From the NCBI RefSeq assembly GCF_910593725.1, contig NZ_OU343031.1:186001-250000 (forward strand): 64,000 nt of DNA, given 5' to 3'. The translations under genes and the position numbers were made by a program. The notes beneath the pieces are model-generated. The model had not been told where the DNA came from and ran no database searches. It was given only the letters and a program-made list of their open reading frames with translations. Numbering within the stretch: the stretch's first letter is position 1; every line of letters begins with the position of its first letter. Positions 34,249-37,320 of this stretch are shown in pieces. This DNA is from Candidatus Vallotiella hemipterorum (GTDB lineage: Bacteria > Pseudomonadota > Gammaproteobacteria > Burkholderiales > Burkholderiaceae).

Positions 34249-35081
34249 TCGAGTATCATGGGCGTCTGTGTGCCAATGATGAAACCTTCTCTCTTATTCT
34301 GTTGTATATACATTGAATGACATCAAGCTCCGCGGATTATGCTTAGGGTGTCTTAGGGGAATTCTACATCGGCCGGTAGTCCGCTATTTGGCTATGTGAA
34401 AAATATCAAACCAGCTAATCTAAAATCTCAGTAGTGCCCGTATTCCTAATTATCTGAGACCAAATTACATAGTCCTTCTTGCCGGTTTTAGACAGCGTGG
34501 TGCTGACTGCGCAGAGTATTACTCACTATAAAATTAGTTGTCAGTCTAAACTGAATAGCAAAGCGACGGATATAGTTTTTCGAATTCAATATACCGCACA
34601 CAAAATTGCACACTAGTGTCCAGGTAATTTAGGTCGTGCTCCACTGATAGGTGCTTAGTTCGTTTGAAAAAACTACGCGCTTAAATTTTACAGAATATAG
34701 CACTGGAGATGCTCATATCTATATATGATTATACGTCTTTGAAAGACGATTAATAGACTGCCGCGTCCGCTGCTATCAGACTTCTTAGTGGACTAGTTTT
34801 TATTTAAACTCTACATATCTAAGCGTGATAAGGAAAATTAGATGAAATGATCTTATTCATACTACTGCAGTCAATGCATAGTCAATTTTAGCAGTAGCTA
34901 TCACCATAAAAAATGAACGCCATCCTAATACTAAACGACTTGTTTGAGTGTTATCAATTTATAATGATATATCTAGGTTGACACATTCTATGTGTCTGAC
35001 CAGCCGCATACATATAGTTGCGATTAAGTGTGGCATCTATAAATACCGTAAATACCTCCTACACTATAGAAAATTTGGGTT
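34249..35081. other. AT-rich non-coding stretch upstream of groESL
   Basis: About 830 bases without a recognisable gene; ends at the heat-shock promoter of groESL. Confidence 0.5.
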
Positions 35082-35108
35082 CTTGAAATAGTCCTCACCT
35101 GTCCATAT
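35082..35108 (+). promoter_or_regulatory. RpoH (sigma-32) type heat-shock promoter of groESL
   Basis: CTTGAAA (35082-35088) is an exact match to the sigma-32 -35 element. About 13 bases later TCCATAT (35102-35108) matches the -10 consensus CCCCATNT with one mismatch in the core. Transcription would start near 35115, some 100 bases before groES. Confidence 0.7.
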
Positions 35109-35110
35109 AA

Positions 35111-35137
35111 TTGGCTCTATCCGCACATGAGTGCTAA
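35111..35137 (+). promoter_or_regulatory. CIRCE-like operator (HrcA site), left half eroded
   Basis: The right half GAGTGCTAA (35129-35137) is a perfect match to the CIRCE element. Exactly nine bases upstream the left half reads TTGGCTCTA (35111-35119), matching six of nine positions of TTAGCACTC. The site overlaps the predicted transcription start of the sigma-32 promoter, where the repressor HrcA would block it. Confidence 0.65.
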
Positions 35138-35153
35138 CAACACGTGCCACCAA

Positions 35154-35175
35154 GACGCCTAGTTTGTCAGGCGTC
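35154..35175 (+). promoter_or_regulatory. Hairpin in the groES leader
   Basis: GACGCCT (35154-35160) pairs with AGGCGTC (35169-35175) around an 8-base loop, about 45 bases before groES. It lies in the 5' untranslated leader; a role in mRNA stability or translation is only inferred. Confidence 0.4.
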
Positions 35176-35219
35176 AACGTTAAAAGCGTTCTTTAGCCTA
35201 CAACATAAAAGGAGTGTGT

Positions 35220-35510
35220 ATGAACCTTCGTCCTTTGCACGATCGCGTTATCGTTAAGCGTTTAGATCAGGAAACCAAGACTGCATCAGGAATCGTAATT
35301 CCTGATGCAGCAGCTGAGAAGCCTGATCAAGGCGAGGTCCTGGCTATTGGTCCAGGAAAGCGTGACGATAAAGGCGCAAAAATTGCGCTTGATATTAAAG
35401 TAGGCGACCGTGTGTTATTCGGTAAGTATGCCGGTCAGACGGTCAAAGTTGATGGGCAAGAGTTGCTCGTCATGCGCGAAGAAGACATTATGGCGGCTGT
35501 CCAAAAGTAA
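35220..35510 (+). CDS. groES: Co-chaperonin GroES
   Basis: GroES is the seven-subunit lid of the GroEL folding chamber. The 96-residue protein begins [15 protein letters not shown]; a GTG two codons earlier is rejected because AAAAGGAG ends six bases before the ATG at 35220. The mobile loop ([14 protein letters not shown]), which docks on GroEL, is intact. groEL follows after 48 bases in one operon controlled by the promoter and operator described above. Confidence 0.98.
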
Positions 35511-37202
<1,692 letters not shown>

Positions 37203-37283: not shown

Positions 37284-37320
37284 AAGACCCTATGTTTTTA
37301 GGAACATAGGGTCTTTTTTT
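37284..37320 (+). terminator. Rho-independent terminator of groESL
   Basis: AAGACCCTATGTT (37284-37296) pairs perfectly with AACATAGGGTCTT (37303-37315) around a 6-base loop and is followed by a T-run. It lies 82 bases after the groEL stop codon. Confidence 0.92.

Follow-up and report, generated by a model that had tools for sequence, protein, structure and literature searches.

A former CIRCE operator at the Candidatus Vallotia tarda groESL promoter, apparently retained after the loss of HrcA

In Candidatus Vallotia tarda, the groESL promoter very probably represents the state left behind by loss of the HrcA repressor, in which the operators at both groES and rpoH have decayed and the remnant at groES is held in place by selection on the promoter or the leader. 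The sequences compared here give good support to the view that groESL, and probably rpoH, is no longer under the control of HrcA; derepression, the use of two sigma factors and the kind of constraint that remains are what we infer from them. Loss of a regulator followed by decay of its operator in an endosymbiont is known in kind; what is added here is that the rpoH operator has decayed in parallel, that Candidatus Pandoraea novymonadis is an apparently independent case and that a dead operator is apparently under constraint. GroEL is overproduced in many symbionts, and the source of these high levels has seldom been traced to individual sites; here, genomes with intact repression and genomes that have lost it can be set side by side within a single GTDB genus, at groESL as well as at rpoH, against an unvarying groESL promoter.

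The course of events would have been as follows. In an ancestor living as a fungal symbiont, HrcA would have acted on perfect CIRCEs at groESL and rpoH, and sigma-32 would have driven groESL upon heat shock. Along the line of the insect symbionts, hrcA would then have decayed and both operators would have lost their symmetry. Because HrcA is absent and the dyads are broken, groESL (and probably rpoH) should now be free from repression, with groESL transcription set by sigma-32 and probably by sigma-70 as well. The dead operator, lying over the start and the first transcribed bases, would be held by selection on the promoter or the 5' leader.

Promoter and operator sequences upstream of groESL

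All of the features described here lie on the forward (+) strand of the window, i.e., the whole stretch of 64,000 bases that was analyzed. Positions 35082-35108 read CTTGAAA, 13 bases, TCCATAT, and positions 35111-35137 read TTGGCTCTA, a 9-base gap and GAGTGCTAA. The sigma-32 consensus consists of a CTTGAAA-type -35 box and a CCNNAT-type -10 box at a suitable spacing, and CIRCE, the binding site of HrcA, is the consensus inverted repeat TTAGCACTC-N9-GAGTGCTAA; the left half here (35111-35119) agrees with it at 6 of 9 positions and the right half (35129-35137) at all 9, on either side of the spacer at 35120-35128. An earlier, sequence-only reading had described a sigma-32-like promoter and a CIRCE with a perfect right half, a 6-of-9 left half and the 9-base spacing, and both descriptions are exact at these positions. 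The CIRCE-like site ends 82 bases upstream of the groES start codon at 35220; the groES open reading frame (96 aa, 35220-35510) is followed by groEL (547 aa, 35559-37202; some of the DNA matches carry a groL/groES annotation) and by a terminator-like hairpin of 14 pairs and a T run (37284-37315), which is weak by itself, the terminator-like scan having found 3 sites vs. 3.0 expected in shuffles.

The sigma-32-type boxes are unchanged in all eight congeners, in keeping with the earlier suggestion that the activating promoter has been kept, and the genome encodes the corresponding factor: rpoH is intact (397.9 bits against a cut-off of 323.1, with an open frame of 319 aa and no stops), as it is above the family cut-off in all 14 genomes searched, the eight congeners included. 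Overlapping these boxes is a sigma-70-like reading that the earlier note did not contain, TTGAAA-17-TATAAT at 35083-35111, which is a consensus match only (11/12); a sigma-70 scan of 3 kb returned 6 sites scoring at least 9/12, vs. 5.4 in shuffles. Within this promoter (35082-35111 with both readings), the 16 sites counted in the -35 and -10 boxes show 0 parsimony changes in Vallotia. Judged by their letters, the groESL boxes could serve sigma-32 and probably sigma-70 as well, and steady transcription of groESL through the sigma-70-type boxes is possible. A scan of the whole genome with a sigma-32-type pattern gave three matches; the pattern was an unsuitable one, which even the groES promoter fails to match. 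Reckoned from the -10 box, the left CIRCE half likely covers the discriminator and the transcription start, and the right half would fall within the earliest part of the transcript.

How strongly the site can be called a former CIRCE depends on more than its score. With up to 3 mismatches allowed, the window contains 1 match, compared to a mean of 0.03 in 100 dinucleotide shuffles (at least one match in 3 of the 100). In the genome as a whole, the same search gives 1 site, and a reversed control pattern also gives 1; the corresponding counts (control in parentheses) are 0 (0) in G002, 3 (0) in G004 and 2 (3) in G005 among the small-genome congeners, and 2 (1) in both G003 and G007 among the large ones. 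Since the reversed pattern also yields one site in the source genome, 15/18 is unconvincing alone, and it is the location on the groESL promoter together with homology, as judged by alignment, that identifies the site as a former CIRCE: it aligns without gaps to the perfect groES CIRCEs of the four large-genome congeners, pointing to common descent. It is not an intact CIRCE (15/18, with GCTCTA in place of the left core GCACTC), and the genome has no PF01628 match that would represent a cognate HrcA.

Among the best 80 named groES loci listed, counted without regard to their individual HrcA status, the core GCACTC-N9-GAGTGC is kept in 78 of the 78 that remain when Ca. Vallotia lariciata and Ca. 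P. novymonadis are set aside. The three changes in the left half are not equal in this respect: the two in the core, at positions 6 and 9, are not seen in any of these 78 relatives, and the one at position 3 also occurs in relatives with an intact core. Seventy-nine of the best 80 loci, V. lariciata included, score at least 15 and together carry 44 mismatches in the left half vs. 5 in the right; the left mismatches are confined to outer positions 1-3, except for positions 6 and 9 of V. lariciata. The idea that a better-kept right half is peculiar to genomes lacking HrcA was weakened by this general 44-to-5 imbalance.

Loss of hrcA and decay of the groES and rpoH operators

In the source genome (1,196,295 bases, 2 contigs), a six-frame search with PF01628 (HrcA) produced no candidate; 7 of 14 control genomes were positive. 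Within the genus, HrcA is present in all four large genomes (G001, G003, G006 and G007; Mycetohabitans) and missing from all four small ones: Ca. Vallotia tarda (G000, the source), G002, Ca. Vallotia lariciata (G004, which shares its coordinates with record NZ_CP047399.1) and G005. Large and small genomes stand together in one genus because GTDB lists Vallotia as Mycetohabitans, as stated in PMC12696581; we infer that the large genomes belong to Mycetohabitans and that G002 and G005 belong to Vallotia. More widely, HrcA was found in 51 of 61 genomes in one survey and in 351 of 399 sampled genomes of the order. The sequence-only reading had proposed looking for hrcA and rpoH elsewhere in the genome, of which rpoH was found, intact, and hrcA was not.

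The former location of hrcA can be followed through nadK. In the large congener G001, hrcA is divergent and adjoins nadK, and nadK is retained in the four Vallotia with its reading frame open in each. Scraps of hrcA adjoin it in G004 (nhmmer E 5.9e-11; alignment score reached by 0 of 200 shuffles) and in G005 (E 2.2e-10; 2 of 200), and G002 has a weak trace there (no nhmmer hit; 1 of 200). Beside nadK of the source genome no trace of hrcA is detectable, 147 of 200 shuffles reaching the real score.

The operators parallel this distribution. Exact CIRCEs number two per genome in the four large congeners, where they sit at groES and rpoH, and zero in the four small ones. When the groES upstream regions of relatives were aligned, as had been proposed, the large congeners had the perfect CIRCE and the Vallotia had broken sites, scoring 15 (G000), 14 (G002), 15 (G004) and 15 (G005) out of 18. 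At rpoH, taken at the exact spacing, the left half matches at 4/9 in G002, 2/9 in G004 and 7/9 in G005, and the right half at 8/9, 9/9 and 9/9, respectively; in the source genome no rpoH site stands out, and the alignment has GGATGCTAA where the right half would lie. By eye, the right half at rpoH overlaps TGCTAAGAT in the large congeners and TGCTAAAAT-like letters in the small ones, and these letters could be an extended -10; a consensus scan upstream of rpoH in the source genome did not find a promoter.

The perfect CIRCE upstream of rpoH was seen in each of the large congeners (at L060 3929-3955 in G007, and in G001, G003 and G006), and from this placement HrcA would also control the heat-shock sigma factor in these species.

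Over Burkholderiales as a whole, when 260-320 bases were read per genome, a groES CIRCE scoring at least 16/18 occurs in 26 of 28 HrcA-bearing vs. 0 of 22 HrcA-less Burkholderiales genomes (27 of 29 if G026, which has HrcA and a 17/18 site and was not in the first count, is included); the Fisher value of 3e-12 overstates the independence of these genomes, given their kinship. The two HrcA-bearing exceptions are G041 (15/18, one of its two groES copies having been read) and G120 (14/18), and both differ in sequence from the degenerate half of the source. A relative combining HrcA with the same degenerate left half, which would have told against the sequence-only reading, was thus not found among these 28 genomes; its suggestion that HrcA repression may be weakened or lost gains from both the missing HrcA match and the changed left core.

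G120 is a case in its own right: its groES site (L107) is an altered CIRCE, TTAGCAATC-N9-GATTGCTTG, with both halves partly changed in step, its HrcA match is weak (1.5e-10), and a joint change of repressor and operator is possible from these sequences. In nine listed genomes of 1.7-2.8 Mb from genera g44, g65 and g68, HrcA is missing and no groES CIRCE of at least 16/18 was found in the 320 bases read.

The weak match of G120 beside an altered CIRCE illustrates how an HrcA might score poorly, and it could be supposed that an HrcA too diverged to be detected is still active at the source site. We regard this as extremely unlikely, given that the six-frame search yields no candidate, that the place of hrcA in G004 and G005 holds only scraps and that the left core, intact in the 78 named relatives described above, is changed here.

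Regulator loss is known from reduced insect-symbiont genomes. In Vallotia, according to PMC8692619, no more than a handful of genes for transcriptional regulators have been retained. The word hrcA is absent from the main text of PMC8692619, PMC8857208, PMC5632650 and PMC12696581, and the titles and abstract openings among the literature matches listed contain no description of this loss.

Age of the loss and constraint on the remnant

The four Vallotia form the tree (G005,(G004,(G000,G002))), with a support of 0.036 for the innermost split. Counting parsimony changes in Vallotia at sites that are invariant in the large congeners, we obtained 0 changes per site in the -35 and -10 boxes and 0.17 in the stretch that separates the two boxes. 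The left half stands at 0.56, the spacer at 0.29 and the right half at 0.22; the remainder of the leader has 0.46, the ribosome site 0.31 and the fourfold sites (n = 230) 1.28. These fourfold sites come from groES, groEL and rpoH, which are probably highly expressed, and so may not be neutral; by comparison with them, the right half has changed much more slowly (Poisson 0.0008) and the left half somewhat more slowly (0.03). The right half retains 34 of 36 positions across the four species.

The left half has the same nine letters in G000, G002 and G004, three related species on which the constancy of the remnant rests, and with the spacer and the right half at 8/9 each, 25 of 27 positions are identical among them (binomial 1e-7 against the fourfold rate, if sites are independent). 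The same three genomes agree at 148 of 340 fourfold sites (44%) and in 36 of 89 upstream columns. Read on the tree, the three left-half changes predate the split of G000, G002 and G004, and the site appears hardly to have changed since; the left half of G005 carries different changes.

The sequence-only reading had described the operator as "caught half-eroded," and this is the part of it that found no support: three Vallotia share the degenerate form with hardly any variation, despite strong divergence at their fourfold sites, which contradicts a snapshot of ongoing erosion. Neutral erosion following a recent departure of HrcA, the left half merely happening to decay first, would fit the absence of HrcA and the 5 parsimony changes in the left half vs. 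2 in the right (over 9 sites each, too few to decide), but it is unlikely in view of the identical left half, the 25 of 27 positions held against 44% three-way identity at fourfold sites, the slower change of both halves and the occurrence of the same frozen form in three of the four species. The identity of the changed left half in three species could also be expected if TTGGCTCTA-N9-GAGTGCTAA had become the operator of another regulator that replaced HrcA. This seems very unlikely to us: the new form has no symmetry of its own (by eye), the form in G005 differs, and Vallotia has so few regulators (PMC8692619, as above). An old loss of HrcA, with the remnant constrained as promoter or leader, is what the comparison apparently indicates. 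When a reduced genome shows an operator that only half matches, then, decay is not necessarily under way; what remains may be selected for other reasons.

The leader RNA and the case of Candidatus Pandoraea novymonadis

The groESL loci of Mycetohabitans-like and other Burkholderiaceae have the same boxes and the CIRCE in the same position, at the edge of the -10 box and over the start region, with groES next to it. The source locus differs from these in having a broken CIRCE dyad and no HrcA, which leaves only the promoter half of the control.

Another likeness is found in G016, whose identity fits Ca. P. novymonadis by its groES coordinates on the first contig and by the same 27-base site. 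It lacks HrcA (the 516 bases that separate nadK from hemH, L095, contain no hrcA trace) and, like the source, has kept the sigma-32-like groES promoter and a 9/9 right half, GAGTGCTAA, and lost the left half (2/9 at the exact spacing, or 5/9 in an alignment with a 3-base insertion). At its rpoH the site matches at 6/9 and 6/9, neither half being well kept. G036, of the same genus, has HrcA and a perfect CIRCE. Unlike the source, P. novymonadis belongs to another genus and has another host, a trypanosomatid according to PMC5632650, so its loss of HrcA is apparently independent of that in Vallotia.

The spacer of the former operator holds a GCAC able to pair with the GTGC of the right half, giving a candidate small hairpin, GCAC-AUGA-GUGC (35123-35134), predicted to lie close to the 5' end of the mRNA. 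Seven of eight congeners keep each of its four pairs, G002 breaking one, with no covariation; the counterpart in P. novymonadis is GCAC-AGA-GUGC, and GCAC is present in the spacer of 26 of the 79 named loci scoring at least 15. We suggest this hairpin as a possible reason for the retention of the right half. A bolder version, which we offer as tentative and on balance doubtful, is that the dead operator has been recruited into the groESL mRNA leader as a small 5' hairpin, in two symbiont lineages that each lost HrcA on their own; the right half would then pair with the GCAC of the spacer, and selection would keep the RNA, not the DNA operator.

Further downstream, a leader hairpin of 7 pairs (35154-35175) is paired in all eight sequences, with 2 of the 7 pairs changed on both sides among the congeners, and it leaves the ribosome site uncovered; a second, weaker one (AACGTT/AGCGTT, 35176-35190) has 3 of its 5 pairs broken in one of the eight, G005. 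For the three leader hairpins together, the covariation score is reached by 15 of 500 shuffles, the count of pairs changed on both sides by 49 of 500 and the further pair types by 391 of 500, and we consider the support that these comparisons lend to the leader hairpins moderate. The CIRCE halves, taken as an RNA stem, show no covariation. An RNA thermometer, which would be a conserved structure hiding the ribosome site and melting upon heating, was considered for this leader; the long pairing that would cover the start codon consists mostly of pairs that do not vary across the congeners. An Rfam search of 34900-35600 returned two matches, both far below the cut-offs. The leader folds mildly better than its shuffles (z -1.6 to -1.8). 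By eye, the leaders of several relatives in the family also contain hairpins, of other sequence.
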